In this document: positions 12,401-56,600 of the stretch, in pieces
Position numbering within the stretch: the stretch's first letter is position 1
Layout of the letters: the number at the start of each line of letters is the position of its first letter
Origin: Incurvaria masculella
Lineage: Eukaryota > Arthropoda > Insecta > Lepidoptera > Incurvariidae
Length of the DNA: 64,000 nucleotides
Direction of reading: 5' to 3'
NCBI GenBank assembly: GCA_946894095.1
Contig: OX335650.1
Span: forward strand, 9,920,001 to 9,984,000
Program-made: the position numbers and the translations under genes
The notes under the pieces: generated by a model
The model's input: only the letters and a program-made list of their open reading frames with translations
Told to the model about the DNA's origin: nothing
The model's database searches: none

Positions 12401-15400
12401 AGCGGCAAAATAAATACACACTCTATGAGAATTTCAGCTGCCTACCTTTTACGGTTCATGAGTTACAGCCCTGTGACAGACGGCCGGACGGACCCGTTGG
12501 CACCCTTTGGGTACGGAACCCTAAACAATGTGCTGCAGAAAGGCGTATTGGCGGAGTTCGCATCCGTGAAGGAGCTCGAGCGGAAGCTGCGCGAGTGCGG
12601 CGGCGGTTGCGGGGCGGCAGCGGGCGGCGGCGGTTGCGGCGCGGACGACGGAGCGCTCGGCGACATGCGCATCGTGGACGTGGGCAGGTGGGGCGGCTGC
12701 GACCTGCGCCTGCTCACGCGCGACCGCCTCGCGCCCGACATCCTCGCCGTTGGCAGCGAGCTCGGTACGGACCGGCGACGTGTGAAGGACGAGTTTACCC
12801 CATTTACCGAACGAAACTCATCCGTGTAACGGCCGTGTAGCGCCGGCCAGTCTGTTCGCTTACGATTTCGCTCACTCGTGATGTTCTCGAGTTCCAACGA
12901 CCTACGCAGAGAACTTGTACTCAGAGCGAACACGAAAAGTTTTTGCACCGACTAGCTGTCACCATCAATATGGAAAAAAATCGTACACAATGTTTCTATG
13001 GAAGACTACTAGCTGAGGTACCCGGCTCCGCTCGGGTCAATGTCGTTTTGGACTGATGTCGGGCTGAATTATTTCCTGGATATAATATGAGTTCCCCATA
13101 CACACATTAATCACCTACTTCACCCCCATCGAGTTTAATTTCTCCAAGTGTATTATCACTAATACGTGGCTACTATGCCGCCATACAAATAAGTTTCGGT
13201 CGCCATTGTTTCGCAAGCATTTCCTGTCCCAATTTCTAGAAGGCTTTTTATTTTAACTTGCCTACGGAGATCCCCGTAGTCGCTGTCGTCAATCGTACGC
13301 AAGTGACACTTCACATGTCAAAACTCTGCAAAACCGCTGTTTAAAATAAGTCACCGAATAAAAACACCTTATTTTCGTAAAACTTAACGTTAACTTCAAT
13401 ACTTTCACAAAAAAAAAGTAATCGGTCATTTTATTTTCAACCAGTGGCTGTACAATTCCCACTTATATTAAGACGATGTACTGACGCATTTTTTGTGGAT
13501 ACAATTCTAAATGGGCTTATCCACTTCTGGACTCCACTACCATACGACTTTCACAATGGAAGACTTTAGAATCAACAACCTTTATTCAATAGTCCATCTA
13601 AATAAGTTAATAAAAAAAAGATTCCTACTAATTGAGAACCTCGACCTTTTTTTGAAGTCGATTAAAAAGAAAAATCCAATTTCGTGCTTCCCCAAAATTA
13701 GAAACAAAAATTAAATAATTGAAAACTTTAAAGCATTTATAAATAGATGATGCGGCAGTTTCCGCCGATAAAAAATCACCAAAAGTTGGTCTGGCCGGCA
13801 CAGGTGGAAGCGTCTTGCAAGATTTGCGCCTTAGGCTACGCAGCATACCGGAGGACGTGCTGGCGCTGTGCAACCTGCTCGTCGACCAGCAGCTCGCGCT
13901 CGTGGAATGGTTCCGCATGCGTGTCAAGTCCGACAAGGTGAACCCATCATTCCCAGTAGTTTAGCTCAGTTAAAAGTTGACAATACACCGGACCGTTAGC
14001 AACTTCAAGTATCTGGGTCATATCCTCACCTCTACTAGGTAGGATGACATGGAGATTGAGAGGCAGAGGCGGTCGCTGTCTGTGGCCGTTAATATATGCT
14101 GCGATTACGATTCGGAAGAGGAGATGAAGCGGTTACAGGAGCAGATCGATTCTATACTATGCTTGTTCCCGTTTCAGCAAGCTTCGGTGGCCAATATCGC
14201 GGCCGCGGCCAAGAAGAAGCTGTGCCAGTTGGAAGATGAGATGGGGCGGCTGCACGAACAGGTGGACGGCGCCATAGCTGGACTGCGCGTCAAGATTGAC
14301 CAAGTGTTCGAGATCGTCAAGTTAGATAAACACCTCTCCAAATCAGATATTTTTTATGTCACTGGACATGGATAGGTTGTTCGCGAACAAACGGGTTAGA
14401 AGACCCGAGTCGTCTGTACTGAACGACCAAACGGGTATCTCATTCGCAAAGATTCGTGTGACCACACAGCACAGCACAAATTACGGAATATGCAGACAAA
14501 CGTTGCGTACAGAGTGGCACGTTAAACCCTACATAGTTGCTGGAACTGATGTATTAATTGTCAACAGTACAAGAATCCTAGCTGGTTTCTTGAGGGATTG
14601 CATGTTTGTGAAAAAATGTCTTGCAAGATTTGCGCCTTCGGCTACGTAGCATACCGGAGGACGTGCTGGCGCTGTGCAACCTGCTCGTTGACCAGCAGCT
14701 CGCGCTGGTTTCTGTACCCTACGAAAATTCTCCAGTAAGTTGAGCCCCAACAAATGAAGCTGTTCGGACAGGATCGCATGGATAGACCGCGACCAGCTGA
14801 TGAAGCGGCTGGAGAGAGCGCAGCGGGAGCTGCGGGTGACGCAGCGCCGCCTGGAAGAGGCGGGGGACGCCCGCACCGACGACAGGGACGTGGAGCAGCG
14901 GCAAGAGGTGGGCAACGCTGCGTCCGAGGTGGAATATAAATTTACTTTCGATGATCTCCATAAAATCCTGATATTATTATTATGTATGTTATAGGCTTCA
15001 ACTAACTTATACGTGTTTGCTTCAATTCATCTATGGGGGTACAATTTCAACGAATAAGGCTTGATGTAATCAGTTGCCGCTATTATTTCATCACATTTGT
15101 TCATAAAAATATGTGCCGCTACGCTGGCTCCGGCATTGTCAATTCACTCAGATATATTATACAATATATCTTTGGTCACCTAATGTTTTCCATCTGCTTA
15201 GAAGCAAGTTTAACGCCGGTTTTTTGCCGGGGCACATTTGTAAACGAAAAGTTTGGAGTACCTTGCATCATCCGGCTAGCGCAGGTGATAGGGCGGCGTG
15301 GTGTCCTGCCGGCGCTTCCTCTTCTTTGTTTGTTGGGCGCCTCAATAAAACTATGGTTTTCCCACACTTGTAGCACAACACTTCACTCTTCACATCAATG

Positions 15401-18400
15401 AAATTCTCTCAAGAAAACTAAACTTGTCCAAAATAGTCGTTAATATCTTCAGTCTCGTAGCTAGCAGGCAGTTCGGTCGCGCCCGCCACAAGAGTGTTTT
15501 TCTCTTTTCGTTTTTTTCGTCTTGAGGCCGAAAACTGTGGGTAGGTAGAATTAGAGGGAAATTGAAAATTAGTAAAACTCCTATGTACTCTGTACTGAAA
15601 TGACATCCGTTACAATACCCCGTTTCTAATTAAAAAAAATTGCACAACGAAAACCATTTTTTTTTAATGTAAATTCAAGAAAAAAACAAAATTAAATTAC
15701 TGGTAAAAAAAACCAACACACACATAATCAAAATATCTCGGAAATTAAGTCTTTTCACGTGATATTTTCCCGAAATTTTGCCAGTACATCTGATGTCTTG
15801 GGCGCAATTATATTTTTGACAAAACGAGGGGCTAACTTTTGACTAAAAAACTCAGTCGCTTTAGACTGCACAAAGTTTCGCCGCCAGACTCCGACATGAT
15901 AACTGACGTGACGTCTTCGCAGGTTATAATATTTGGCATTCTTTGCGAATCCCTTCAACAACGCATTTTGAACCTTATCGAAAATGACATTGAGTTCTAG
16001 AAGAGACTTCGTATACCCTTAACGATCAGCTATTTCGACCTCATCTTACGTTTTTGGTTTCGCAGATTGAAAACAGTGCCCGTTTAAAACTGGCTCCCGT
16101 CCAAACATTAAAAAGTAGGCAGTTTAACCATGAGCTAAATTAACGGTACAGTTCATAGCACAACAGATGGCAATCACAAAATTCGAGCAGGTCCGTTGAT
16201 CAGACTCTACATAGCATGAAAGTGCAGTTTCTAGAGTTTTATTATAACGCTCTATAGGATTATTTTGAGGAGCATAAAAATGATTATAGAATATTTTAGG
16301 AACTCTGAACTCATCCATTAGCTCCCGAAATTCGTTTGAAATAAACTAGCGACCATTGTCGCATAAAATTGTTTTGCAAATGCCGTATACCAAGAATATC
16401 CGCTTCTTAAAAAAATTCTGCAGTCTAGCAGTAGCCTGTTAAGTGGACAAAACCAGCAAAACTACGTAAAAACGTCGACGACAGTTAATATATAGCAAAA
16501 CCCATCGTAACTACGTGGAAGAGGTCCGATAAGTGCTCATGCATTCCTTAAAGTGGCAATCAGCAGGACGCCACGAAATTTTGAACCAACATTTTTGAAA
16601 ATATTATTTATTAGGTGTCTAATATTATTATTGCTCAAAATTACGCCTAACAGGCTTTCTCGCTCGAAGTGCACTAATTAAATGTATTAAGATACGCTAA
16701 AAATGTCATTGAATCAGTAGATTAGGGTAAAGAGTTGATTTTAGTAAGGCTATTGGTAAAGTAAATCACTGTATACTAGTCCAAAAACTAGTTTCATTTG
16801 GTAGGTATTCATGGAATTTAGTTGAAATGATTTATATTCTTTTTGTCACTCCGGATTTAATAAATGTTTTTGATGGAAATGGATTGCGTTGGTGTAAAGC
16901 TCCGGGGTTCCCAAGGTTCACATTTGGGACATGTTTTGTTTTTGATACAGGAATCAAAATTCAGAAATCAGTATTTATACTGAATTATAGTGAGACGCTC
17001 AGTGTAAGGAGCTCAACCTTGCGTGTTCATTGCGTGCAGGAGGCGCGCACACAGCAGGCCCGAGAACGCGCGGCGCGCGAGTCGCTGAAGGTGGTGGTGG
17101 CGAGCGCGGAGGGCACGCTGCGGGTGACGCGCCCGCATCGCTGACCTCGAGCGACAGCTCAAGGATTCGCAGGCCGAGACGGAACTAGCGAGGCGCAAGT
17201 GCAAGGAGCTCAACCTTGCGTGTTCATTACGTGCAGGAGGCGCGCACACAGCAGGCCCGAGAACGCGCGGCGCGCGAGTCGCTGAAGGTGGTGGTGGCGA
17301 GCGCGGAGGGCACGCTGCGGGTGACGCGCCCGCATCGCTGACCTCGAGCGACAGCTCATGGACTCGCAGGCCAAGACTAAACTAGCGAGGCGCAAGTGCA
17401 AGGAGCTCAACCTTGCGTGTTCATTGCGTGCAGGAGGCGCGCACACAGCAGGCCCGAGAGCACGCGGCGCGCGAGTCGCTGAAGGAGGTGGTGGCGAGCG
17501 CGGAAGGCACGCTGCGGGTGTCGCGCGCGCGCAACGCTGACCTCGAGCGACAGCTCAAGGACTCGCAGGCCGAGACGGAACTAGCGAGGCGCAAGTGCAA
17601 GGAGCTCAACCTTGCGTGTTCATTGCGTGCAGGAGGCGCGCACACAGCAGGCCCGAGAGCACGCGGCGCGCGAGTCGCTGAAGGAGGTGGTGGTGAGCGC
17701 GGAAGGCACGCTGCGGGTGTCGCGCGCGCGCAACGCTGACCTCGAGCGACAGCTCAAGGACTCGCAGGCCGAGACGGAACTAGCTAGGCGCAAGTGCAAG
17801 GAGCTTGAACTTCAGGTTATGATTTGATATTTTGTACCTTTTAGTAATCTTGCCTGAACCTGCGTTATTTGGATAAAATGCATGCTATGCATAATCTACA
17901 CAAAGCCTCCACCACCTGCTAGATGGCGCTGATTAAGCGTAACTATTAATCTTACGCAAAGGCAATCAGATTGCAATATTTGAGATATCAACATATTTGC
18001 TGTCGTCACCAATACCTAAATTTGTTTTGGTATCGGACACTACAGTCAAATCGGATTTGAATTAATGTTTCGTTCATAATTTTAGGTTAAACGGCGACAC
18101 CTACATGGAAGCTTGATTGAATCATTGTTATCATAATTTAAAAACGAGCGAAAAAATGTCATGAAGCAGTATTCGAACCTGCAACTTTGGGATTACATGC
18201 TCACTGCTCTGTAGGCTACATTTTATTTATTGGTCTATTTATGGATTAAACACCGTCTTAATAACAGCTATGTACCTATGTGCTCTCCACAGAGCCGACA
18301 CCGTGAGAGCAGTTTCGATGCGCGCAACAAAAAACTGAAGGAGGTCTCAAAGTGTGGAGAAGCCACCATCGAAACCCTAACCAAGCAGCGAGATGCTCTC

Positions 18401-21400: not shown

Positions 21401-24400
21401 GATCTGGTCCTTATTTTCGGAATCTCGACAGCGAAAAGTGCTTGTTCCGCGTTGTGCGATGGTAGAAATGGGACGGAAGACAGCGTTATGCAGCTCCGAT
21501 GAGCATTCTCCATGGTAGAGACGATAGAACAAAGAGAGATACCTTGAACTCCTACGGAGTTGGAGGGTCTCTAAATTCAGGGCTACCTCGGGGTCGTCGA
21601 CGAGACGCACGACTTTAAACTGAGCCGTCCCACAAAAGCGAAGCCGGCTCTCTAGGATAACTTTCTGTATCTACACACGGTGTTTTGTACAGGTGGCGGC
21701 GGGAACACCAGCGCGCGCGAAGTGGGGCTGTGGGAGGAGCTGCATACTGCGCGGCTGGCGACGGCGCGAGCCAAGGAGGAGCTGCGACGTGTGCGCCGTG
21801 ACAAAGACGCCTTTCTCAGCCAGCTCTCTAGGATCACTCTCTGTATCTAAACACGGTGGTTTATGCAGGTGGCGGCGGGAGCACCAGCGCGCGCGAAGTG
21901 GGGCTGTGGGAAGAGCTGCAGACTGCGCGGCTGGCGACGGCGCGAGCCAAGGAGGAGCTGCGACGTGTGCGCCGTGACAAAGACGCCTTTCTCAGCCAGC
22001 TCTCTAGGATCACTCTCTGTATCTACACACGGTGGTTTGTACAGGTGGTGGCGGAAGCACCAGCGCCCGTGAGGTGGGGCTGTGGGAGGAGCTGCAGACA
22101 GCGCGGCTGGCGACGGCGCGCGCCAAGGAGGAACTGCGTCGTGCGCGCCGCGACAAAGACGCCTTTCTCAGCCAGCTCTCTAGGATCGCTGTTAGTCAGT
22201 TATCCTAAAATAACGGGTCATTTTAACAGCAGTCAATCCCTCAGTAGAGAACCTGAAATGAAGCAACATAAATATATACAATGAGCAAATATTTCCTGTT
22301 TCGGAGAAAAAAAAACGGATCCCACGAAAATATCCAAAATTTGAGAGTGTGAAAATTATCCAAAGTTTGAGAAATAGTGTGTGAAATTCCTCCGTAAGAT
22401 CACGTGACGCCTAGGGCTAGGTAAATAAACATCGCTGCGTTGCACGAAAGTTAGTTTCGTAAATGTTCCTAAATCGTTTTTTTTTTCAATTCCATATGAG
22501 ATTTTTTTATTTTAATGTTTTAAATTAAGGAAGTTGATTTGGTTTCAATACAAAAACACCCATAAAAGTATTTATACATTCACCTGTATGCGTCACCGTG
22601 CAAGCGAAGATCATCGTCCTCTAAGCTTTTATAATCAGCAGATTTAGGGCGGCATTTACAGAGTGGGTTCAAAAACCGGCCAAGTGCGAGTCGGACTCGC
22701 ACACGAAGGGTTCCGTACCATCGTACAAGATTGAACACAAAAAATCACGTCTTTATTTATTTATTTTTAGTTTACTAATTTGTTGTTACAACGGCAAAAT
22801 AAATACACACTCTGTGAAAAATTCAGCTGCCTACCTATTACGATAGATGAGATACAGCCCTGTAACAGACGAACGGACGGACGGACGGACGGATGGACAG
22901 CGGAGGCTTAGTAATAGGGTTCCGTTTTCACCCTTTGTGTACGGAACCCTAAAAAGCAATAATTATAATATTGGTCCCAAGATTTTGTATTAAATTACCT
23001 AATGTTTTCCTTAACAGCAGAAGGAAGATAATAACACCGTGCAAGACAATATGGCGCAGGAGCTTATAGAAAAAGAAAAGCGCAATTCTAAACTTCAGGA
23101 CGCAATTGCAGCCTTAGAAAAAAATGAAAAAATCAAGTTAGTCAAACATGCCACGTTCTTCCAATTTGAAAAGTAGAACTAAATGGAATTCAGTTTTAAA
23201 TATTTGAATACATATTTTTATATACGTGGTATGAAAACAATATCTACTTCAAAATATTTTCCTACTACATTAATTGGTTTGTAAGAGTGCGTTCACTGAC
23301 TAGGTTCGTACCATGAACGTGCGTGCGGTGAAGAAATCAGATTCTGAATGTGTAGGGTGTAGTTATATTGTTGTTCTTTATCTCAATTATAAACATAACT
23401 ATTAAAAATATCAACCGTAAATAGCGAACCGTAAAATTATGGTTATGTAAATCACAATGACTGATTTAGCGAAGAGCGTGCGTGTGAGTACGAGCGTCAG
23501 ATTTCGGAGCTACGGCTGCAGGTGACGGCCCTGCGGAACTATGACTGCAACACTAAACTCCCGCCACCGCCGCTCGACCAAATGCACATTGAGGTACGTT
23601 CTCGTATACAACCTTCCGTTTGTGCTTGAACAAATAGATAGGTGCAGAGAGCCGACTTCGGATACACGCTGTGGTAAGTACTTGCCGTTCTCGAATGCAA
23701 CATTCAAGGAGTTGCAGAGAAGTCCAAATGAGTAGATTCGGAAGTGACATTGACACGCAACTACGAGTTCGACAACAATCGTCGGGGTGCAAAGATCAGG
23801 CAGGCAGCCTAGAGCAAACATCTTTAGGTGAGGGGACCGGAACATTGGGAGCTACAGCTGCCGGTGTCGGCTCTGCGGAACTATGATTGCACCACCAAAG
23901 TCCTGCCACTATCACTGGGCCAATAGTTTGTACCTGTTCCCACTTAAATTATTCACCAATTTGCGAGTGAGTAGGTATGGTATGGCTGCAAAAGGCAACA
24001 TTACAAATCACAGTACACCACATCGTGTCTACCATGGAATTTTGGTGTTTACGGTGTACAGCACAGTCTACATTGTAGAAACGTAGTCTTCTACGCCACT
24101 ATAGCGGCTCGTAGCCTAGTGGCGCGGGGACTGGCCTAGCGTACTAGAGACCTGGGTTCAATACCGACATGCACCACTGTCTTTCTCTTTCCGAGTTCGA
24201 TAAGTGCATTTTCATCACGAATGCGAGCTGCTCCATGGTTCGGAATCCATGTAAAACTGTAGGTGGTAGGGTTTAAGCCCGCCCGGGTTGGTACCATCGC
24301 ATTGGATGAAAAGATGGTCGAAGCGGCAATGAAAAATTGTCCGTGTTTTCCATCCAGTTCAATGTAGCCGTGCTCATAAAGGGAAGGTCCTGGCATGGCA

Positions 24401-27030: not shown

Positions 27031-27100
27031 AACCACTACGCGCAGCCAATCACACTAACATTAGGAAATACAATATGTAGTAAAAATCTTGATTAATGTA

Positions 27101-27128
27101 AATAAAAACATCCGTATATACAATAAAG
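27101..27128 (+). terminator. Poly(A) signals of gene A
   Basis: AATAAA occurs at 27101-27106 and 27123-27128, 71-98 nt after the TAA of gene A. Confidence 0.6.
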
Positions 27129-27559: not shown

Positions 27560-27584
27560 ACAGCAACGGTGTTTTGGTTTGACA

Positions 27585-30500
27585 TTAGAAAACATTGAAA
27601 TTGGAAGAGAGGTAGGCAGCATTGTCGAGCTCGCGCTGACTGCGGTGGCTGCGTGGAGCCGCCAGCGTCATCAGGGGCCGCCGCAGAAGCAACTCGCGCG
27701 GAGCTCCCCCCTCCCCCGCCGGCCGCGCATGCGCACCGCCTCCGGGCGAGCGACCGCGCCCGCGCCCGCGCCCGAGCTCAATGTCCGTCCGAACCGCGTG
27801 GTAAACATTGACGTTGTTCTGCGGCCTTATCCAACCGTGATTATCGACGTTCGTCCCGTATCTATTCGGGTCACGGCTCGTGCTTCTTTCGCTCCCGCTC
27901 GCGCACGAAGACTCGCGTCCGGGATTTTTAAGCAGTCGCGATGACCTTTTCTTAATGAACTTGTGGTAGACCTCCCCGAGGCTGGAATCCGAGTCGCCCA
28001 GTTTTCTCCGTACAACGGAGGGATTAAATTTCTGCGCTCGACCGCCGCTATCCCTGCGATACGCCTTACCCGGTGCACAGACGGCCTCTGCCACGATCTC
28101 ATTGTAGTCAGATGTTCCTAACTCCTTTTCTAGGATGCTCATCAAGTAGCCTAGGCGGTCTGAGGGTACTTCATTTATTTTCATCGGAATCGGGCTCTCC
28201 ATAATCTTCCGCTCCAGGGTTACAATGTTTTCCTGCCTAATACTATTGGCCGCAATGGACTTGCCTAGCTCTTCTTGAAGCGTCAACACGATTTCCTCCA
28301 GCTGGAGAATGTCTTGCTTTCTTTTTTCGACATTCGTTGCCAACATTTCTACTTCTTCTGACTTCTCCGCAAACTTTTCTTTTAACTGAGAACATAAATA
28401 TCACAATCTAAGAAATATCGGAGAATTCTTCATTATTAAATGAAAGTACTTAGATTAGTTTCTTTCAGCAGAGAATATAATCTGGGCATGCAAAAACAAA
28501 GTTATAATTTTTCAGAAATTGTTTCTACGTTTAGGTATTTAGGTTTCGGATAAATTCTATATTTCCAATCATCTTAAATCAGCCTGAATCAATAACTACG
28601 GGTGTGCTAAGTATTTCCTCCTAACCCAAAAAATGCATACTTTTAACTCATTCTGCATGTTCACTTCGATATCGTGCTGGAGGCTATAGAGCGCGCGCGC
28701 CTGGTCCCGCTCGCGCACGTCGTGACGCGCGAGCGCGACGCGGTGCGCCTCTAGCGCGCGCGCGCGCTGCTCTAGCTCGCCGTCCTTCTCCTGTAGCGCC
28801 GCCGCCAGCTCGCCGTTTTGCCGCGTCGCTTCCAGCAGCTTCTTCCTCTGCCCCAGTATCTGAAATGTCACTCTGCTGGAGACGCTCGCGACAAGAGGGC
28901 CACTCGCCGGTTTTCTGCGTCGCTTCCAGCAGCTTCGTCCTCTGCCCCAGTATCTGAAATTACACTCTGCTGGAGACGCTCGCGACAAGCGGGCCACTCG
29001 CCGGTTTGTCGCGTCGTTTCCAGCAGCTTCGTCCTCTGCTCCAATATCTGAAATGACACTCTGCTGGAGACGCTCGCGACAAGAGGGCCACTCGCCGGTT
29101 TTCTGCGTCGCTTCCAGCAGCTTCGTCCTCTGCCCCAGTATCTGAAATTACACTCTGCTGGAGACGCTCGCGACAAGCGGGCCACTCGCCGGTTTGTCGC
29201 GTCGTTTCCAGCAGCTTCGTCCTCTGCTCCAATATCTGAAATGACACTCTGCTGGAGACGCTCGCGACAAGCGGGCCACTCGCCGGTTTGTCGCGTCGTT
29301 TCCAGCAGCGTCGTCCTCTGCTCCAATATCTGAAACGACACTCTGCTGAAGACGCTCGCGACAAGCGGGCTACTCGCCCGGTTTGCTGCGTCGCTTCCAG
29401 CAGCTTCGTCCTCTGCCCCAGTATCTGAAATGACACTCTGCTGGAGACGCTCGCGACAAGCGGGCCACTCGCCGTTATTTTCACACAATTGTTATTTTGC
29501 GCATGGCTGACATTATGTAAGTGCATAACTACGGAAGGAAAGGACACGATTGGAAAAAAACTATGGTCTGTTCTAAGAAAATTGTAATGTTCATTATGTC
29601 ATTTCGATTCGTGTATAAAAAAAAATGTTCATAGGGTTTTCGTACCAACTGGCGAAGCTCCGTGAAACAGTCCATCGACGCGTCCTCCTCGTCGTGTGGT
29701 ACGTAGCCCAAGTTGCTCTTCAGAGACTTCAGCTGGTGCTCGTAAAGCTCTACCTTTAATTCACTGAAACAGATGCTACACTTAACAATGGGGCGGGGAT
29801 CGAACCTGTGACCTCTGGCATAGAATGATCGTTTTCGCACCTCTGAGCCACGAGCCGCTCTCCTCTTATTTGTTCATGTAGGTATTTATCATCAGGGAAC
29901 ATAGTAATACATTCCCAAATAACACTCTAGCGATAATAAAAGCAATATAAGAGATGATTAGTGGTGGATTAAATAAGGTGAAGTTGTGTATCGGTGTTCA
30001 AAAATATATATGCTATATCGGTATAAAGCGATATATCTTGCTATAACTCCGATATACCCCCGAAAGAGGCCCATTCTTGTAAAGCTAAAGGTTTGATACA
30101 ACACCCATATTATGTAACATGATATAAACGATTTAGGTGTTACAGTAGCAGGCCTTACTTTAGAACTAACAGCATATATGGATATACGTAGTGATAAAAG
30201 AGCTAAGGTTAGCGCCGCTATAGAGTGAATGGCTTTTGTAATTCCTGATATAGAGCCTATTAAGATAAAGATATTCCACAAGATAGTAAGAGTTAATTTT
30301 CTCTAAGGTTAAAGTTGGAAGGCTATGCAGTACTGCGGTTGCTACTAGCGCGGCTATGCCACTCTAAGCGTTACTGCCATTTATATAACTTGAATCATTA
30401 GTTTCATTTCTTTTGTATATTGAAAAAAGTGATAAGTGGACCCTTTATAAGTCCTTTACATCACACTAAGTTATAAAACAAGCTAAAACTGTCCAACACA

Positions 30501-33500
30501 GTGGACAGTTTTAGCTGTTTGGCTATTATGCAAATCGGAATTTGGGAAGATTTATTTTTATTATGATAACTAGCTGAGGTACCCGGCTCCGCTCGGGTAA
30601 ATGTCGTTGCCTGCGTATCAATGTAAGCGGGAAAAATGTAATTATTTACGACATCTCATTAGAAACCTCAAAAATAACAGTATTTCTCCACTATTTAATG
30701 GATGTTATTCCTTAAACCTTCCTCCTCAATCACTCTATCGATTAAAAAAAACCGCATCAAAATTCGTTGCGTAGTTTTAAAGATTTAAGCATACATAGGG
30801 ATATAGGGACAGAGAAAGCGACTTTGTTTTATACGATGTAGTGATAAAGAAATAGACAAAAGGTGGTTCTGTTCTCTGTAAGTTCGGAAGAATATTTTGA
30901 CTTTAAAGTTATAGATAATGCCATGTATATAGAGCGCTTAGGATATAATAATATCTAGAAGAGAGGAAATTAATTAAACGCACCTTTCCCGCAACTCTTT
31001 TTCTACTTCCTCCATTTTCCTCATGAGCTCTGTAACGAGGTCTCCCTTAATCCGCAGTTCGTCAATGAGCTTAGTTTTAATTTCCATTATGCTCTCTTTT
31101 TTCTGCTCCAGCTCGACAAAAAGCTTTTGTTTCAATTCCTGGCAACAATTGTTTGTACATCAAGAAATTAATTTATTCTTTAATAAAAATGGAAATGGTT
31201 ACAAAATTATAATTACCTCAGCATCGCTCAGAGCTTTTTCTTTTACATTGACGATTCTATGCAAATCCTTAACTTCCAATTCGCACTTCTCTAGTGCTTT
31301 TTTCGTCTTTGTCAAGTCTTTTAGCTGAATGTCTTTGTTCTCTAAAATTGTATTATATTTGTTTAGTTTTTAGTATGCCAACAACATCATACACATAGCA
31401 ATTATGACACAGGTGTAATACACATAATAAGATATCAGAGTGTATAAGCCAATTAAAGGCCTACACAAGTTTCTTACAAGTTCTATCTGATTAATAGAAA
31501 ATACTTTTACATAATAAATATAATAATAATAATAATAGAGAAAAATCACTGAGTGAAATTTGACAACGTGAAAGAAACAGCGAAATAGAAGTAACAATAC
31601 CCAAAAAAAATATGATAACTATTTAAATAAAAGATATATTTTTTTATAAATCCACTAATGATATTAGATGCAGATCTTTTAATATTCTGAATGTATGAAT
31701 AAAAAAGTCTATAGAATTTCTATGCATGTTTTAATCGCAATGACAATTCGGTAAATTATTGTCAAAAAGAACATGCTTCGGAATTATCTCTTACAATAGA
31801 ACTAAGAATTATAAAATATCTTCGCCCGTAGAAAATGCGTACTACTAATACTTTTAAATAAGTATTTCTCCCTATAGGTATTTTTATTAATTAATTAGTA
31901 CTTGCTACACGGTCGATACATAGACAATGTACATTTTTTTTATGCGACCTGACATGGATGGCTAATCCCACACAACAACCGTTAAGATATTAGCCCAATA
32001 CACCAAATTCCCGAAGGAATTTGGTTCCATGCCAGGACCTTCCCTTTATGAGCACGGCTACATTGAACTGGATGGAAAACACGGATATTTTTTTTTCATT
32101 GCCGCTTCGACCATCTTTTCATCCAATGCGATGGTACCAAACCGGGCGGGCTTAAACCCTACCACCTAGTAGGGGGATTCCGAACCATGGAGCAGCTCGC
32201 ATAATGTACATTATCATATTTTACCAACATGCGATCGTTCCATCATATTAAGATCACGTAATTATTCGTAAATAGTGCAACAAAACTAATGTGACCTTAA
32301 ATCAACAGGTTAAAAGTCGTCAATTAAATACGTATAATCGAACCAAAAAAAGTAAGAAATTGTGCGGTTCACTCTATAGTGGAGCCGCCTGCAAGAGCTA
32401 ACCTTTAAAAGTTCATGTGAGTAACTGTACTCACCTAGCTGAATGGTCTTCTCTTCTAACCGTATGAGCAAATCCTTGTTCTCAGCTTCAAATATTTTGA
32501 TATTGCTAGCTGCAATTTTCAGCTCTGTGCCAACTTTGTTTTTTTCTTTTACAACTGCCTTCATTTGTATTTCTATTTCAACCAATTTACTTACAGTTGC
32601 GTCAATCTCGGATTTCATACATTTCGTCGTTTCGTTATATAGCTTGCAAGATTCTTCTAATTTTGTTTCAAGATCTTTTTTACTGAAAATTAAATGGAAA
32701 TAAATCTTTTTTTCAGTAATGAATAAAAATAAAAAGATAAAAATATAATAAAGTAAAAATTATCAGGCAGTACTTATTACTTTAAATTGAAATTCAATAA
32801 CTGGCTAACTTATAGAATGCCATTACAAATATAGATTGGCTAGAAACAATATGAAAAGATAAGAGGAAAGGGAACCAACGCAATGACAAGTTCCTCGCGG
32901 GCCTCAACGACCTCCTGGAACTCCATCATGTTCCTCTTCAACGACTCCGTCAGTTTGCTCAACTCGCCATCAAATCGAATTTGAATGTTCAGATTCTGAA
33001 ATATTCACGAAGCTATGTAGTCTGAGCACGAGGTGAATAGAACATACAGGGGTTTTCAATAGGAGTCTGAAGTAAGGTTAATCTTGAAATACACAGTATG
33101 ATGAAAGACTGCTTACACCGCTCTTACTTCAATTGGTCTTTACGCATAGGGAAGACATTTATAAGGTACCTGATTGATCCTGCAACTGGCGGACGGAGGT
33201 CCCAGCGCTCGCACCTCACTCTGTGCCTTCTCCAGTTCCGCCTTCAGCTCGCAGAAGCTCGCGTTTACCGCCTTGAATTGCGCGTACACCGCTCTTCCTT
33301 TAACTAATTTTCACGAATAGGGAAGACATTTGTAAGGTACCTGTTTCTGCAACTGGCGGACGGAGGTCTCCAGCGCGCGCACCTCACTCCGTGCTTTCTC
33401 CAACTCCACCACCAGCTGTCAGACGCCCATGTTTGCTGCCTTGAACTGCGCATACACAGCTCTTCCTTCAACTAGTTTTCACGCATAGGGAAGACATTTG

Positions 33501-36500: not shown

Positions 36501-39500
36501 CACCGCTCGGCGGGGGCGTACGAGTGGGCTGTCAGGTATTGTCTCGTAATTCGAAGTGTGATCGTATCGTTACCGATGTCGTGATCTCCGTCCATAAACA
36601 CCGCACCGGCACAAGCGACCTCGTGTGCGCCCGGCAGTTCCTTCGCTGCAGCCGCGTCGCCCCCCAGCGCCTCCAGGCGGCTGTGGGCAACTTTCATCTC
36701 CGCCAGCAACTCCATCATTGTTTTCTACGAATCACTGGACAGCTATTATTGCAGCCCATTGCATGTGCATTTGAATACTTTCTTATAGGCCTCAGTTAGC
36801 CTAGCCTCGGTAAACTTTTCTCTAAATATGTGTCTTTCCAAGCTTGTAACTGGTGACATACACACACTCTCCCTCGCCCTCACACACAAATAACACATAG
36901 CATTACATCACATTGTTATCATACTCATATTAGTATCGCTAAGGTCACGTACGGTGTATGTAACCAACACACCACACGTCATCGTAGCAAAAGCCTAAAT
37001 AAATAAAATAAAATAAATGAAAATAAATATAATAAACACAGAGATAAAATTATGAATGTGTCCCTGTTGAAATGTACAAAAGTGACACATTTTTTCTGTG
37101 ACAATATTCTATAACCACATCACAAAAGTAAATAAAGGACAAGTTAATTAGTTAGAAATAATGAGCATAAAAAAAACATTAAAGTAACAATGTGTTTTTA
37201 AGTAACACTGGGCGCTATTGGATCTTAGATGGGTGACCGTTCGACAGTTTAGGCTGACCATGGTTCAGATTACATAAAAAAACACAGTGGGGACCTACTG
37301 GCTACGAAGTGGTAGGACTAAGTTAAGGAAGTTAGTACCATCGTAATGAAAGTTTTCCGTAATTTCCATCTAGTTCAATGAGCCGTGCTATGTCAAAAGG
37401 TCCTGGCATGGCACCTAATTGCAAGTGGCATATCGTGAGGGTTATGTGGTATTGGCCATATGTGACCAGTTCCTTAAATAAAGGTAAGTACACATGTGTA
37501 AGAGACATATATTTTCTTTACCTTACCTGCTTTGATTTGAGCTCGGAATTCAGAGTATTGAAGTCGGTCTTTTTCTCTTTAAGTTTTTTCTTCAGTTGAT
37601 CGATAGAATCAGTTATCGACGCCATGGACTCTGAAAGAAGTTAATATTTTAAAGTTTTTGAAAAGCATTTGAATACAGATTTATTGAATTATTGTTATAG
37701 ATATAATATTGAGTGTGTACGTTGAATTATTAAATTGACTGGGTTCAAATCCGCGATTTTCTTCGAACTATAAAATTATTCTCACTTGATTGCTATAGAC
37801 CAATTTTCTGCTCATTTTCAAAACCTAATTTGTAAACTTAATGAAGATGTCGAATAGGACGCGGTCTCCAACAAACGATAAATGTATCCCCACCCAGAGA
37901 AGGTGGGTCCGCCATCTTAATTAAAACTGAATTCGCTGAGCAGTCCGATCGGGGAAAGTGCTGGCTTCTCATTTTCTCGAGTTTTCCCTTTGTCTTCTGC
38001 AAATAGTCACACAAAAGTTAAAATTGTTTGACACTTTCAAATACTATATTAATTAAAACAGAAGGGCTCGTGTTTATCAAGATGTAAATAATACGGAAAT
38101 TGTAATATTTCCTGCCTGTTCAAAAAAAATAGGAAAAATACTCACTCCCGTCTGAGCAGGAATCACGTCTTTCTCCTTATTGACATGAAATATGAGATTT
38201 TCGTACATTTTCCTCGGTACCTTTGATTTCTAGAAATAAGAATTAATAGTTACAGGACCACATGCTTGTATGTATTGTCAGAACCGGGATGCCTGCTTTG
38301 CGGTCTTATCATGTCGATGGGTCCTATAGACGGCACTTGCCCGTGCGCGTAACTGGAACAAATCTAACTAGGTACGTATATGCAAAACTACAAAAGGCAA
38401 GGCTTATGTCATATATTATGCTTATCAACCGGCAAAAGTTAGAGACCACAAAAGATAAAGGAAGGAATAGTGTTATGTGGGCGCCGCCGCGGACTACGCA
38501 TTTTGTGCTAAACAATCCAACAATCACCAACGCGCGCGAATGTGCTCCCGAAATGGGTTATCCAAGTCAGTTTCCACCAACACAAAACCACTGATGATCC
38601 AGTTAGAAAGGACCTTCGTAACTTGATGCCTCCAATATATCTGCGACTATATTTGCGTATAAGGTTTGGAAAAATTGGAGACAGCGGGTCTCATTAAAGC
38701 CGTGCTAGATGGGGGCGTGTCGCAAGCCGATAGCCCAGGGGGGGGGGGGGGGGGGGAAACGTATGAATTGTAGGTACAGAAGAGAGGGGCAGCTGATGCT
38801 CCCCGCTGGCGACGCCCCTGGACACATCTACTTCCATTTTTAGATTCAACTAGGTACAAACCTTGTCCACCGTGTAGTTAAGACGGTCGAAGTGGGCGCT
38901 GCGCGCCGAGGCCGGCGCGGGCGGCTGCGGAGGGGTCGGCGGCAGGGCGCGACGCGCGCCCGAGCCCGCGCCCGAGCCCGCGCCCGCGCCTGCCGCGCAT
39001 CCCGCGCCCGGCGCGCACAGCCCGGCGGCGGCGCGGCCGAGGGCGCGGAATCGCTGCTACGTCAAACAATCACTATCCATTTGTGCAACGAAGAAAGGTT
39101 TTTCAAAAACAAAAAGAACCTGTGGAGACAGGTACCATGTCAGGACCTATCCTTTATGAGCACAGCTACATTGACCTGAAAGGACAACACTGACAATTTT
39201 ACATTGCCGCTTCGACCATATTTTCAACCAATTCGATGGTAGGTATCAACAGGCTTCACCCTACCACCTAGTGGGTAGAGGAAGAGGACCTACAAATTTA
39301 CATGGATTCGGAACCACGGAACAGCTCGCATTTGTAAGGCCATGACCTCTGGCATAGAAAGAAAGTTCCCGCGCCCCTGGACTAAATACGTGCCGTACCG
39401 CTCAGGTAGATTTGATATATGTATCAACTGCCACATATCTATAAGCTATGAATTTTCTTGATGCCTACGACTCCGTCGCGGGGAAGAAAATACCTAGTCG

Positions 39501-47600: not shown

Positions 47601-50600
47601 ATATTATTATTGTTTATGATTTCCTTACGAATGGGAAAAGGGAAGGTCGTCCTGATATGGCACCTAATTCCTTTCGAAATGTGGTATATTGGGCTTATAT
47701 CATCATGGTTATTAGCCATCCATGTCAAGTTGAGTAAAAAAAGCGCAGCCTACTTCTTTTAAGTCATTGAGATGGACGTTGCTCTGTGGAACTTGCATCC
47801 CTCATTCCTTCCCATCCTACCTATATCTGGAGCACCCGCCGCAGAGAATCAGAGCACCCCCTTGTGGTTGACATTGGGCTTTTGAGAACGAAACGTTTCT
47901 CAAACTCATTTCTCTGCCGCAGGTGCCTTTCCTCATACCTATAACCTGGGAGTCTTCAAGCGTAATTTGAACAAGCTCGATAGACCGTAAATCCGCTGGC
48001 ATGGTGCCTCGCTGAGCGTGGTTTCGCGAGGCGAGGGGTTTTTAAATTTTCAGAGCATCTTTGGTCCTCAGCACAGCCACCCATACCGGTTTTTTCATAA
48101 AAATAAATTTCAAAAAGTCGACAAAGATTTTGCAGTCAGAATGTTAAGAAGCGGCTCGGGCCTTGCTTCACAGCTGTTTCATGATTCAGAATCCATGCAC
48201 ATCTGTAGGTCCCTGAAAGCATCTGTGTCATGAAAGTAGTTAGTGTTATTTAGCCATCATCCATGTCCAGTTACATAAAAATTAAGGCAACTGTAGTTTG
48301 GGGTTTCATCATCGAAGAATATGCGAAACCATACCAATTTGAAACGTTTCAGGAAATATCCGACGATAACATAACGAAGTTAAATCACTTCTCCGCTGAA
48401 GGGCAGTCTCTGATGGAGTTGCTCGTCAAAATGAAGACTAAAGCCGACATTAACGTGGACTCGGCCGTCGAACTCTCTAAGTACGAAAATTTCCTCTCGG
48501 ATTCTAAAGTGTTTATTACCATGTATAGCTGGACAGATAGAGGAGATATAACTCAGCTCACTCCAGCTTTTCAGTTTGGTTGGAGCAACCGAAGTTATAA
48601 TTTGGCAAAAAAACTAACAAATTGGCACAATTTACAGATGTATGCCGGCGATTCGTGAGATGTGCGAGTATGAGATTTAGAAAAAAAAATGTCAATAACA
48701 ACTAAGTGAGAGAAAGACTCATTGGAAATTTCAATGGTTCAATAAATGATGATAAGATGATACCTACAAGTCTTTTTAGTAGCCCCATACAGGTCAGATT
48801 TATGTACCTACCTCCGTGATTACTGTACCTATCACGGAGGTACAGGTCCTGGCAGCTAATCAAAAATCAATTGGGTCGCATCGATGGTCACAGACAGTCG
48901 CGGTACGTGCTGAGCTAAAGTCACTGACTCAGTTGCATGATAATGGACGACCTCGGATCAGCAATGCTCCAGCGGCGGGATAGTTCCGCGGTTCATGAGT
49001 ATGTATGTGCAAGCGTATTGTGTGTCGCGGCCGGCAGGCGGGTGTGGTCGGAGCGTGGCACGCTGGCGGCGGTGGGGCAGTCCCTGGTGCGCGATGTGGC
49101 GAAGCAGCGCGCGCGCGTCGACGAGCTGCAGGGGCAGCTGGACGCCGCGCCGCCGCCGCAACCACCCGCCGCTCCGGGCTCGCTTCAGGTATGCAGCAGC
49201 CCATTCAACAACACGTCGATGCTAGCAGGAAGCACCTAGAAGACAACCAAAAAAAAAATATTTTAGTTGGAATTAAACGTGCGTAATAGAGCGAATAGGG
49301 GACGCGACCTCCATACTTCCTTACATTCCAGAAGCGAGTCCTTTCAATACTCACTCGATTTCATAAATATTGAACCCCATCTTTTTTCGCGATGGAAAAT
49401 ATACTCCAAAACCAATCAATGATACTTAGGTACAGCGTATTCAAGTGGGTTCCCGTATTTCCTTGCTTGCTGGTGGCATACGCGGTCGGCTTCCCATACA
49501 CAATTTTGTCATACGGCATCGACTAGCTAGAGTAACCTGACACGTTCCCTTCCTTTTCTATTCTGTGGAACCGCCACATTTGTGGTACAGGAGGTGACGC
49601 GGTCGCTAGCTACGGAGCGCGCGCAGGCGGCGGCGCTGCGGGAGAAGCTAGCTGCGTCGGAGTCGCAGCTCCGAGCTGCTCGTGCGCGCATTAACAAGCT
49701 CGACCGGCAGCTGAAGGAAGCCGAAATGAGCATCGCCACTCTCGGCTCCACCGTCAAGTCGATGGATGACCAGGTAAGACAGGGGGTGAAGATGTCGCTG
49801 GTTGCGGAGCGCGCGCAGGCAGCAGCGCTGCGGCAAGCTCAACCGGCAGCTGGAGAAAGCCTAAACCCCAGAATAATTAGTAATAGAGCCACCGCCTAGC
49901 TTGGTTCTACTGTCAAACCGATAGATAGCTAGGGACGTTACCATGGACAATTAACTGGCCGGGTGAACAGGCAAGTGAGTGCATTTCTTATCATAATAAC
50001 CATCATACGAAGTTTTATCCGTCCAAGTAAACTGAAATTTACCATCTAGCATGGTATAAAATGCAACTAAACGTCAGATTTAGCCCCGGTTGCACGAAGA
50101 GACGGCCGAGTTAATCAATGTTCAAACACGTCACTTTTAGTGATCCGCATAGAGTTCCTTCCATACAGTCCACCCAAAGTGACGTGTTTGATCATACTTT
50201 GACGTTGATTTTGATGTTTTGTCCTTTTGTGCACTCGGCCCTTAATCGCTTACAAGACTGTTCATTTTGTGAGTAAATGTACCATATTAACACCCCAGGT
50301 AGGCAGACAAGTACAAAGGCTTTGTGTTAGTTTGAGGAAGCTGTCCTTTAGTGTACGTTGAATCCGTAGAACGAGGCTATTTTGCTTGTATTGTGGGTAT
50401 TATAGTAGCATAGTTTACCTGGCTGTACCTGTGTGTTGGACTGATTTCATAGGTGTGGTATTAGCCATCCATGACCAGAAACGAATATCAATGAAAGGGC
50501 ACGCCCAAACTTCGTACCCGATAATTGTTGTAATTGTTTTAACCGTGCTTTGATGGTTACAGAACCGTCAGCGCGACGTGCAGCTGGAGAGCCGCGCGCG

Positions 50601-53600
50601 CAAGGTGCGCGACGCGCTGAAGACCAGCGAGCTCAGCGTCAGCCAGCTCACGCACGAGCGCGACTCGCTGGAGCAACGGTACCTTCCGATGGGCTACACA
50701 CACCAACCGAGCTATCCCGACAATTACGTCAGCCAACGAATTTCTCGATAATATTAGAATCGATAAAGAGCTTCCCCTATCTAATTAGGTTGATATCTCT
50801 ATCATTTTAGTAAACCTTAGCGGGGCCATGCGAAGCAGCGCCACCTATTGGTAGATAGATGGTGAAGCATTGTGTAGATTCGATTATAATCGAGAAATTC
50901 GTTAGGTGATGTGATCGTCGGATATTTCAAAATATAATCCAAAGCTTGCAAAAACATAATTGGACCACCTAACACTTCTTCTTTTTTTCTCTTCTGGGGT
51001 TTGTAATAACCATAAACACGCAAGGTGTTTGTTCATTTCATGCATTTTTATTCAATAATGGTGTCGATCTTTAGGTTAAGCAACACTGAGCGCAGGTCGG
51101 GTTCTGGATGGATGACCATTCGACCGTTGATGTTGGCCGTGCATCAGATTCCGCGTCTAGAGGTGTTGTTCTCTAACTCACTCCTAATCCCGCCCACGTT
51201 GGTACCACCGCATTGAATGAACGATGGTCTAAAAATTAAATTGGCACCTAGTTTCCAACGAGATCTTACCTTTTCATAAACTTTTCTTAGTTCAGTTAAA
51301 AAAGTAAACCAAATCACATTAAAATAACAAACAAAAACATTAAACAAAAGGGGTCGTTCAGGATCGCGGATATGACGGAGGAGCAGCGCGCACTGAGCGA
51401 GAAGCACGAAGCGGAGGCAGCAGCTCTTCACACGCAGCTGGCGTCGCTCGCCGAGCAGGTGGAGGAGCGGTCGCAAGCTGTCGAGCGCGAGGGCGAGCTG
51501 CGCCGCCAGGCAGAGCAGGGTCGGGCCGCCGCCGCCGATCTCGTGCGCGAGCTGCGTGACAAGCTCGTCGAGCTCGAGCGGCAGCTGCCAGATCCTGGTG
51601 AGCCGGTTTAGGATCGCGGATATAACGGAGGAGCAGCGCGCACTGAGCAAGAAGCCACTCTGCACACGCAGCTGGCGTCGCTCGCCGAGCAGCTGGAGGA
51701 GCGGTCGCAAGCCGTCGAGCGCGAGGGCGAGCTGCGCCCGCCAGGCCGAGCACCACTAATGTTCCAGACAAGATAAGTGGTAAATACTTACCTTGCTTTG
51801 GCGTCAAACAACTATGAAAAAAAAGGTAACATTTTACAGCATCGAGCTCCACTTCAAGTAAGTTAAGTGGGTCTCAACGTCGGATTGACGAAGTACTGCA
51901 GGTATCTCACCCGTTTTTTCATTTTTCCAAACCATTTATCCATTTTTCCCCCGTAATCTTAGAGCATGCATACATGTACATCACAGTAAACTGGGCATTT
52001 GTAAGTTAACTGTACGCGGGTCGAAGTTATAATGTGGCGGTAACCGTGACGGCGAACGATGTTCACGGTGGGTGCACGCGTATTTGCAGATGTGCCGACG
52101 ATGCGCGAGGTGGATGCGCGCGCGCAGCTGCACGTGGTGCAGGAGGCGCTTCGGTTGGCCGAGGAACAGCTCGCGGCCTCCGTCAGGGACAAGATGCGTT
52201 ATGTCGAGACACTCGCCATGATCGCGGTTAGTCGATAGCAGCCGTTAATTGTCGCATTCATTCCATCACAGAATTGGGAATGGGCTATGGAATGGGATCA
52301 CTTCACTACCACGCGCTTGTCGACGTACTCGAAATCCATGCTACTTAATTGATTACGTCGGCCGCACGACGGCTAGTAATCATCTTACGTGCAGATACGG
52401 TTTTTCTTTAAATGCTACATAGGTACTACTTACTACTAATAGTGACCGTGAAAACTTCAAGGCAGAGGAAAGGATTAATGCAGCCCAGAAGTACCTAAGT
52501 ATGAGTTTTGTAACGGAGACAACCGCGCGCTTATGATGCGAGAGGATTTCCCCAACTTTGAGGCTACAATATACTTGTTTATGTACTTATATGTACATTG
52601 GGACCGAGCGACCATGGACGTACATCCTCTCTGATTTTTATATCTCAATTATTTTGTTCTAATAGGCAGTATTTAAGCCTGAAGGTCGTGATCGATGCTT
52701 TACTACCAACCTCGAAACTTCATAACCGGAGTCTTGTATTCTATCTACATAAATACTCAATACGTGTTTTACAAATACACGGATGGTGCGTTATTTTAAA
52801 ACCACAGTTTAATTCGATATTCTGTAGTGTGACGAGGTAGACCGTTTTATTACAGGAACCCACCGGCGAGGTGACGGCGCATCACAAGCTGGCGGTGGAG
52901 CTGCTCTCCAAGGAGGAACTCATTGGGAAAATGCAAGTTCAAATGCGGGAATTGACCAGAAGCTGTAACTTAAAGTTAGTATGGGAATAGTATGGGTGTG
53001 CTGAGGTGCTGAGGTGCGTGCTCTGTTCTGCATGTTTCTACTATTAAATACATTCATTATATTTAAATATAAACATATTCAGGGTTGGCTTTAGATAGGG
53101 TTGCCATCCGTGGGGGTTTCCCCGGATTTGTCCTAGTTTAGAGGGCATCCGGGGAGCGTCCGGGCGGAGCTGCTTTTGTAGTCCGAGTTAAAAAATTCTA
53201 ACTGATTTGTAAAACAAATAGTAACAAACTGTAATAATATTCTGTTTTATTAGGTAAGTACATTTAAAATGATGATAAAAGTTCACTAAATTTAATTATA
53301 AGGTCTGAAAATAATTAAAAAGGTGATTAATGATGTTTCAACTGTTTTTTTTTTACACTGACTGTTTAAAAAATCCTGTTGACGTGTCCGGGTTCTGGGC
53401 TCTAAGATCCGGGGTTTTCACGCGTATTTTCACGCCTTGTCCTGGTTGCCAAATTTTAGAGGTGGCCACCCTAGCTTTAGAATGTTCGAAATGTGTAATG
53501 TATTATTCGTACAGCTGGTGGTGAAAGGGCCCGAGGACTTGCCTTTCATGCAAGAGGCTTCAAATCCTCTCTCCGGTCATGTACCACTTTCTTTCTCATT

Positions 53601-56600
53601 TGAGTTGGATAAGTGCATTTCGTTACAAATGCGACCTGTACGATTGTTCGTGGTTCGACACCCATATCATGTAAAACTGTACGTCCCCTTGCCCTACTAA
53701 TTGGTAGGTAAGGGTAAATATGATTAATTTACCCTTATACTCATATTAATATTTTATGCAGGGTCGTCGCTAGGGGAACATGTAGGGGCAGCAGCTGCCC
53801 TCCCCCCCCCCCCCCTTAGATTTTCATTTGCCTATAAACTACCTATAAATCATACTTACATACAGAAACTGAAACTGAAATGGTCTGGAACAGTCTGGAA
53901 CCTCCTTCCCTACTAACCAGTTAGGTTAGTATAAAAGAGCTCGCGCGGGTTGGTGCATTAAACGAACAAGGATCGTTACATTTTAGTATAATTCCAAAAC
54001 AATGTTATTCCTCCGGGTTCCTAATATTTTCGGCACTGACCTGAAAAATAAAGTAATTTGTAAATTGTCTAACATATATTGCACAGGTTTGAAAACTTAG
54101 GGCTTTTCACGCTGCGGGTGGTAGCCGCTACGTTCGTACAGTCGGCTGCTGCGTACGGACGTAACGGCCGCCTCCTTAACAACGGGCTGAACCACTTGAT
54201 CAGTGGGCTGAACCACAGAACAATTAGGGGGTCAATATTCCGTGGGCTGAACGATCAGCTCGAAACGTCGGAGAATGTCTCCTCCCGCGGCGTGAAAAGC
54301 CGCAAGTTTTCAAACATGTTCAACGACCGCGGTAATCTCTAATGTATCATATATTGCACAGCTTTATTGAACTGCGGCCCATATACAATAAAAATAGATA
54401 TAAAAATCCATTGACGGGCGATTTGGTGTATTCCTCAAATGCCTGCCCTAAGGCTCAACGAAATTTCGATAAGTATAAGTAATAATTTCGATCGTAATAT
54501 GACTCTGGTCGGAAAAACGAACAATTTTATACTGATGCTTCGACCATAGTTGGATGAACCCTACCACCTAGTAAGTAAGGACTAAGTTTTATGTAGAATC
54601 CGAGCCACGAACAATCATTCGGATCATACGACATGCACTGGAAGAAATTCAGTGGGACCACTTGTGTTATTTTTAAATACCGGAACCCAAACAGCACTAA
54701 ACAACTTATTCTGATATTTTAAACATACTTGCCATTGTGTAGCGAAAGCAAGGTGGAGCAGTACGAGCGTCACCTCAGCGAAATGCAGCTGCAGAGCGCC
54801 ATCGCGACTGGCAACACCGCTGGGCTCTCACCTGCCGACTTCTGCGAGCTACAGCAGGAGGTTATAGAGGACCCCTATTATACCAAGTCTCTCACTCAAT
54901 TCGGGCGGGACAAGAACATCATTGTTTTGGCTGTTCACGGCATTCATATACATATAGCAGTCATCTGTGTTGTTTGGTTTAAGTCTATTTCAATTATGTA
55001 CGTCAATATGCTACTTCTCTGTTCCACCCTGTCCTTGGATGGCCTGCAAAATTAATCACGAAAGATTCAATAATACTACCAACTAATATTATATTTGGGA
55101 AAATGTGTCGGTTGGCTTGGCCTTCTTTCACGCAGAAACGGAACAATGGATGGACAGTTCGAAATGCATGGATCGGAGAGTGGCTAGCATAGACATTTTT
55201 TTTTTTCGAAAATAAAATTTGATATTTTCCGGAGCCAGGTACCGCAACTCATTTGCTATAAAATAGCCTCATATTAAATATCTTTGGTCGAAAAGGCTTT
55301 TAAATCCACCCATATGCAGTCGTTCGCCCACCAACAGCAAAATGTTGCAGGAAATTTACAGAAAATATATAGTATCCTTCCAGTAAAAAAGGATAATTTC
55401 TAATCAAAACTTACATTCCTACTTTCATCATATCCTCACAATTTAACTTCTTATCGTCTGACCAACTCAAAATATATGTTTTGGACGTAGAACAACATAT
55501 TGTCCTATAAATCTCATCAAACAAAAGTTTGATATTTTCAAATATTGTACGAATTTATTAAAAGTCCAAAACATTTTGAATAGGAGAGATTAGACGAAGG
55601 ATTTTATATTCAAATCATAAATTGTGAGCAGGTTATAGGTAAACGAAAAAATAATGTTTTTACAAATAAAGAAGTTGATGGAAGGGCGAGGATGAGGCGA
55701 TGATCAATGAGGTTTGTTTGTGGAGTCGCTACACGCACCCCATCGCGCCAACGTTCCGAATGGTCCATGGGGATGCCGAATGTTTCCCATGTTGCTCAGA
55801 TTATGAACCTCCGTATGAGCCTGCTGGAGATGGCACACCATAACGAAGAGCTGACGTCGGACCTGCGCCAGAAAGAACTGGCGCTGGAGCAGCAGTCGCG
55901 GACGGCACACTCGCAGACCAAGCTCATTAAGGTGCGTATAGTTTTAACTATGATAATTAATAATGAATTTCCGCATGAACCTGGTGGGCATGCCCAACAA
56001 CAGCGAAGAGCTGACGTTAGAGCTACTCCAGAGGGAACTGGCACTGAAGCAGTCGCAGACGGCACACTCGCAGACCAAGCTCATTAAGGTGCGTATAGTT
56101 TTAACTATGAGCATTAATAATGAATTTCCGCATGAACCTGGTGGGCATGCCCCACAAGAGCGAAGAGCTGACGCTAGAGCTAATCCAGAGGGGACTGGCG
56201 CTGAAGCAGTCGAGGACGGAACACTCGCAGACCAAGATCATTAAGGTGCCATTCGCATGAACCGGCTGGAGATTCAGTACAGTTCTAACAGTTCCGCATA
56301 AACCCGGCGGAGATGGCGCACCGCAGCGAGGAGGTGACAGTTGAGTGGCAGATTCACCGAAGGAAGCTGGTGCTGGAGCAGCAAGCGCACTCGTAATAAA
56401 AGCCCAGCACGGTGCATCTAGTTCGATGACCTCAGATATTCTTGTGTTTGATTTTTTTTAAAACACTAGTGCAGACGGTGACCCCATCGAAAGTCGAGCT
56501 TTGTGTTCGAGTGCTTACTATAGATAGCGGTGATTATAGAGGCCAAAATTAACTACTTCATCTTTTTCCATTTAATCTCCTTAGCTCTTTAAAATGACTT

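Follow-up and report, generated by a model that had tools for sequence, protein, structure and literature searches.

A stretch of 64,000 nucleotides (nt) from the lepidopteran Incurvaria masculella (contig OX335650.1, here C10, positions 9,920,001-9,984,000, from an assembly of 552 Mb in 31 contigs; hereafter the window) contains a trio of divergent paralogous genes with a common exon plan, A (+), B (-) and C (+), in which single exons are accompanied by extra copies of themselves. These copies are best explained, with good though not full confidence, as tandem arrays of a segment of about 60-240 nt that straddles one splice junction, of a kind that recurs in unrelated genes elsewhere in the genome. 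Local tandem duplication of an ordinary sort, together with unequal exchange, likely produced them, and those cases in which one copy of the exon keeps both splice sites were likely spared by purifying selection. The pattern is probably neutral and would amount to a class of minisatellite that is pinned to splice junctions and found in many genes of one genome, possibly in regional excess in the neighborhood of the trio.

The exon limits are predictions, based on a home-made scorer, protein matches and reading of the sequence, and they define 38 exons in the trio. Extra exon copies had been claimed at nine places in the initial annotation, and repeat finders together with base-by-base reading located them at all nine (9/9). 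At five of these the copies form arrays, and since each copy there has only one splice signal, they are indeed unusable as normal cassette exons, as had been proposed. Acceptor-only copies lie upstream of the intact exon in three arrays. In gene A, the intact 183-nt exon 9 with its acceptor and donor (17633-17815, +) is preceded by three copies (17000-17632, +) with acceptors before 17040, 17237 and 17434 and a unit of 197/199 nt (Tandem Repeats Finder: 17001-17805, 197 nt x 4.1), and the array itself is preceded by an exon-end-like stretch starting at 17000. Exon 12 of the same gene (22045-22190, +) follows two copies, from 21693 and 21869, in an array of 176-nt units (21642-22044, +; Tandem Repeats Finder: 21642-22187, 176 x 3.1). 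Exon 18 of gene B (28641-28860, -) has six copies in 94-nt units with a 188-nt dimer pattern (28861-29474, -; Tandem Repeats Finder: 28804-29474, 94 nt x 7.1), and seven acceptors were counted there. An open frame at 28599-29147 joins three of these units in frame with the real exon, and would add 94 amino acids if the outer acceptor were used. Donor-only copies lie downstream of the intact exon in the two other arrays. The intact 183-nt exon 12 of gene B (33509-33691, -) has two such copies, with exon parts at 33341-33480 and 33170-33312 and a 37-nt internal deletion, in an array of 168-nt units (33114-33508, -; Tandem Repeats Finder: 33114-33612, 168 nt x 3.0), and exon 17 of gene C (55800-55931, +) has two (55960-56088 and 56117-56245) plus a decayed third in 157-nt units (55932-56420, +; Tandem Repeats Finder: 55844-56249, 157 x 2.6). 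As judged by eye on the alignments, the exonic breakpoint lies no more than about 16 nt from the opposite exon edge in four of the five arrays, the B18 array being the exception.

The claim that most copies are acceptor-only or donor-only therefore stood for the five arrays (at 17.0, 21.7 and 28.8 kb, and at 33.1 and 55.8 kb, respectively) but not for exons 6 and 14 of gene A, the stray copies of which have no splice site at all. For A6 (intact at 13804-13937, +), this is a 92-nt copy of the exon interior, 806 nt downstream (14618-14709, +); for A14, an exon predicted by reading (23501-23592, +), it is a decayed copy 342 nt away, at 23.8 kb (23843-23923, +). Exons 11 and 13 of gene C have one partial copy each (at 49.8 and 51.6 kb), with the acceptor AG kept and the donor gone, and these are not arrays. 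The C11 copy (49783-49935, +) spans the exon, with a mutated donor and internal deletions, and sits directly after the donor of the intact 183-nt exon (49591-49773, +), starting 9 nt past its end. The C13 copy (51612-51757, +) begins 14 nt past the end of the intact exon (51363-51597, +; start from sequence reading) and corresponds to about the first 145 of its 235 nt, its 3' part and donor having been lost.

The compared copies are 76-99% identical to their exon over 81-159 nt, and given this identity they are not chance similarity; the B18 array, which stood outside this comparison, has 92% matches among its units. Insertion of a mobile element was considered and rejected, since the units consist of parts of the neighboring exon and of the intron edge rather than an element's own sequence or ends. 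An artefact of assembly, to which a single array that is 99% alike (L093, described below) would lend itself, is very improbable, as the copies in most arrays differ by several to 25 percent and have private indels, and the arrays recur in independent loci. Ten of the 13 gaps in the copies are not multiples of three, counted per copy, such that a 2-nt deletion common to A9 copies 1 and 2 and the 37-nt deletion common to the B12 copies each enter twice. Mismatches in the copies numbered 53, 55 and 106 at the three successive codon positions, which fits, without proving it, a constrained exon compared with freely changing copies. By their computed scores, the decoy splice sites appear close to the real ones in A9 (acceptors 5.1, 5.3 and 5.1 against 5.1) and C17 (donor 6.3 against 6.3), and weaker in B12 (donor 4.4 against 6.3).

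The initial annotation had regarded the pattern as special to these paralogues, which was not supported: when 120 kb of flanking sequence and a further 80 kb drawn from eight places elsewhere were examined with Tandem Repeats Finder and by reading, and protein matches followed through the genome, the same kind of array appeared in unrelated genes nearby and on other chromosomes. Arrays or copies were recorded at nine exons beyond the trio (L004, L006, L027/L089, L028/L068/L090, L057/L091, L032, L081, L066/L092 and L093+L103), which weakens fragility peculiar to the paralogues as the sole cause. Nearby, a spondin-like exon (L004; Spond_N, E=1.8e-23) has four donor-only copies of its 3' part, making five donors with the real one, and a zinc-transporter-like exon (L006; ZT_dimer at 23.6 bits, below the cut-off of 26.7) has one donor-only copy. 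A kinase search of the genome gave 137 matches, which overlapped one another at two places, and both proved to be donor-only arrays of a kinase exon: L089 (C5:21867301-21868700, local 247-1396; 150 nt x 7.8) and L090 (C7; 139 nt x 5.9). At L089, about seven 150-nt units follow the kinase exon; as this length is divisible by three and the match lies in an open frame of 398 amino acids, donor read-through could give repeated catalytic-loop segments. Another kinase exon (L066/L092) has a junction-only array of 61-nt units with a 120-nt dimer. Finally, an ABC-transporter exon (L093+L103, C20:5584639-5586614) has a young-looking donor-only array of 239-nt units, 6.6 in number including the real exon and with 99% matches, which reaches the end of the fetched stretch. 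Donors counted were seven at L089, seven at L090, eight at L092 and at least six at L093+L103. Three further repeats (L041, L073 and L100) were examined and left uncounted, being intronic or unclear.

A simple series of events could generate such arrays. If one breakpoint of a duplication fell in the exon and the other in the intron, a single complete exon would remain on the border of the array; the spliceosome could still use the innermost pair of sites, and the rest of the array would become intron. For the observed unit and exon lengths, a geometry computation showed that 0.90-1.00 of the viable placements are one-sided, so that the side pattern needs no special cause. GC-rich exons would supply most of the unit; the intronic share of the unit, estimated by eye, had a median of 0.18 over 11 arrays (L032, L081 and L093 not being among them) and was under one half in 10 of the 11 (Kolmogorov-Smirnov p=0.006). 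Older, decayed copies may then provide the short imperfect homology at which the next round of unequal exchange starts, so that duplication, decay and reseeding would follow one another in a cycle. Just outside several arrays, a short stretch of imperfect match was found; beside the 99%-alike ABC array, 14 of 18 bases match the exon, as if an older decayed copy had seeded the array, or by chance similarity. Unequal exchange typically leaves homogeneous interiors and higher-order dimers. In L089 and C17, units in the interior resemble one another more closely than those at the edges. B18 (28861-29474) is 97% alike at a distance of two units and 92-93% at one or three, its alternating unit types forming the 188-nt dimer; L092 likewise alternates, its 120-nt dimer being a higher-order repeat pattern.

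The frequency of such copies was estimated from samples of exons, a hit being a copy that overlaps the match by at least 20 nt. The kinase sample comprised, of the matches whose open frame did not exceed 200 amino acids, the 60 that ranked highest by score, each with 350 nt on either side, and copies were found in 4/60 (L032, L057, L068 and L081), of which L032 and L081 are decayed (75% and 72% alike). It is to be noted that L068 is the C7 array, which was known beforehand yet ranks within the 60, that L066 overlaps its match by only 7 nt and falls outside the four, and that L027/L089 was kept out of the sample by the open-frame filter. Among the first 10 of 17 eligible ABC matches, one exon (L093) had copies (1/10), giving a pooled rate of 5/70 (95% interval 0.02-0.16). 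In the trio the rate was 8/38 predicted exons, reduced from a raw 9/38 by dropping one simple repeat inside an exon, and with the A6 copy left out as lying beyond the 350-nt limit. In terms of length, 15.7% of exonic nucleotides in the trio had a copy within 350 nt (89 of these 972 nt coming from the simple repeat), against 2.8% in the kinase and ABC exons.

Several observations, some in the coding signal and others in the statistics, weigh against neutral local duplication as the whole account. Mismatches over all copies lean to third codon positions (106/214), and in the two A12 copies (21693-22190) those against the real exon are distributed 0/2/11 and 0/1/11 over the codon positions, i.e., 22 of 25 are at the third, as if copies and exon were both constrained; neutral decay does not predict this bias, although the two copies are not independent. 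Moreover, one composite exon, that of three B18 units, is open and in frame. These points bear on function, namely on the possibility that selection keeps the extra splice sites, either for use as decoys or because they allow longer isoforms. Such a role would suit the apparent constraint on A12, the splice signals that the copies in all five arrays have kept intact, the extended exon with 94 more codons that B18 would yield from its acceptor three units upstream, and the 150-nt unit of the L089 kinase array inside its 398-residue frame. Of the composite exons possible in the five arrays, however, 14 of 15 are out of frame or have a stop, none of the unit lengths of 94, 157, 176, 197 and 239 nt is divisible by three, and homogenisation of the arrays accounts for intact signals without selection; function is accordingly improbable.

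On the statistical side, the training frames of the exon scorer were partly wrong (14 stops in 1198 codons), and the sampled exons were not significantly richer in copies than tiles of sequence, with 5/70 against 1/80 tiles of the other loci (p=0.10) and against 12/200 pooled tiles (p=0.78). As the exon rate outside the window is thus not significantly above the tile rate, an exon effect is shown within the window only. There, eight duplication events touch trio exons and five do not, by our own grouping of rows, whereas trio exon makes up 6.2 kb of 64 kb, a figure that leaves out the exons of other genes and the upstream exons of A and C; the probability of at least 8 of 13 events in trio exons is 0.0002-0.018 at expected shares of 0.15-0.30. 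Of 12 rows classed as purely non-exonic, two are the A9 and B18 arrays, and the remaining ten represent five repeats. Lastly, the trio rate is borderline above the sample rate (8/38 against 5/70, p=0.059; raw 9/38 against 4/60, p=0.03), so that some effect of the locus is possible. Local fragility, meaning that short segments are duplicated at an unusually high rate in this chromosome stretch or gene family, with the same exons as its weak points, was one of two causes suggested in the initial annotation. It gains from this borderline difference, as well as from the neighborhood, where repeats were found in 11/120 tiles of 950 nt in the flanking 120 kb (some of them exonic, including L004 and L006) against 1/80 in the eight other loci (p=0.03). 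A regional excess around the trio is hence possible, the baseline of eight loci being small. The suggestion fared less well in its other part, as arrays are not peculiar to the paralogues and the same arrays occur on other chromosomes; overall, we regard local fragility as a possible but less likely cause.

The argument for fragility also drew on recurrence at the same exon. Alignment of the genes to each other and to a Bicyclus protein established that the 183-nt exon is homologous among A, B and C, and that the B exon at 28.8 kb is homologous to the C exon at 55.8 kb; the earlier claims that the former was duplicated in all three genes, with different breakpoints and on different sides, and that the latter formed a second duplicated pair, were both confirmed. 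As a sign of a special cause, this recurrence did not hold up. In simulations with 4, 2 and 3 copy-bearing exons in the three genes and 12-18 shared positions, one exon was hit in all three by chance with a probability of 0.07-0.16 (0.17 with length weighting), which is not rare, and for this combined with a further exon common to two genes, the probability was 0.04-0.12. The coincidence is therefore suggestive at most. Had the 183-nt exon been duplicated once, in the common ancestor of A, B and C, and the array of each gene been homogenised afterwards, all three genes would carry the duplication, as they do, and homogenisation is seen in several arrays; on the other hand, breakpoints and sides differ among the genes, and copies are far closer to their own gene's exon than to those of the paralogues, making this reading about as improbable as function. 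Concerted evolution within each array could nonetheless hide an older shared event, which qualifies the independence of the three.

With regard to identity, gene C is the conserved member of the trio. Its joined exons (492 amino acids) matched four lepidopteran proteins, one of them the Bicyclus protein (E=8.6e-89 over 98% of the query), named 'forkhead-associated domain-containing protein 1-like'; the homology to this lepidopteran 'FHAD1-like' coiled-coil protein runs along the protein length. When the whole genome was searched with this Bicyclus sequence, five matches reached E<=0.001, every one of them in gene C. No match to the forkhead-associated (FHA) domain was found in four scanned fragments of C, the N-terminal exons lying outside the scan, and the four homologues list no Pfam domain. 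For gene B (27588-36724), no homologue was found at E<=0.001 among 8000 scored candidates; it may be fast-evolving or young. Elsewhere in the window, there are an AT-rich (27% GC) tandem array of 92 nt x 3.4 (7204-7513), which lies outside the trio exons, a GACG x 20.8 microsatellite (4730-4812), and a stop-free frame of 342 codons that resembles a Tc1/mariner transposase (60935-61960), in which HTH_Tnp_Tc3_2 scored 33.1 bits, over its cut-off, and DDE_3 scored below its own.

Among known systems, minisatellites consist of homogenised units, tens to hundreds of bases long and arranged head to tail, with higher-order dimers. The arrays described here likewise have head-to-tail units above 70% alike, but their unit is pinned to the splice junction of a coding exon. 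As a class, one-sided exon-end arrays were found in no describing paper in literature searches that covered part of the matching literature. Human repair-mediated duplications (PMC2671141, Pace et al. 2009) are short and closely linked, some being of exon pieces and of splice sites, have 2-9 nt of microhomology or filler at their breakpoints, and derive from partial exon/intron donors in 4/824 cases. They resemble the present arrays in the close linkage of donor and copy (up to 619 bp there; adjacent units of about 60-239 nt here), and differ in being described, in the sections considered, as donor-copy pairs rather than head-to-tail arrays. The array edges here show short imperfect homology. 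In tandem exon duplications and mutually exclusive exons (PMC9013439), the copies are also near the parent exon, and many were unannotated; in the classic cases, however, the copies are usable as exons, each with an acceptor and a donor, whereas in five arrays here they are acceptor-only or donor-only. In the same paper, the share of exonic bases that have a copy of 80% identity within the gene is put at 0.08% for D. melanogaster and at about 2% for human, compared with 15.7% and 2.8% in the two sets above, although the methods differ and these values give no more than a rough scale. When introns are gained by tandem duplication (PMC2891723), the process similarly involves a duplicated segment that holds a splice or proto-splice site, but creates a new intron, while the array here lies within an existing one. 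The dual-specific splice-site arrays of polyubiquitin (PMC10809524) are comparable as tandem splice sites tied to a repeated coding unit; in polyubiquitin, the sites delimit ubiquitin monomers and are used. A case from butterflies is that of the duplicated exons in bacterial artificial chromosome clones of Bicyclus (PMC3166123), some copies of which have nonsense mutations; in the passages considered, they are not described as arrays or as one-sided.

If the arrays are real in RNA, conserved genes such as those of kinases and an ABC transporter would tolerate six to eight near-identical donors in a row, and the choice of splice site by proximity or by exon length would become directly testable in nature. 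They would also stand as a warning to annotators, as the copies can yield false exons in gene models, and would suggest raw material for splice-site migration and exon growth. In the broadest terms, we propose tentatively, and with a little less than even confidence, that exon-end minisatellites may be a genome-wide feature class of this lepidopteran lineage, in which about one coding exon in 14 has one splice signal in 2 to 8 near-identical tandem copies, and which would offer nature's own collection of competing splice sites as well as a lasting supply of material for the lengthening of exons and the turnover of splice sites.

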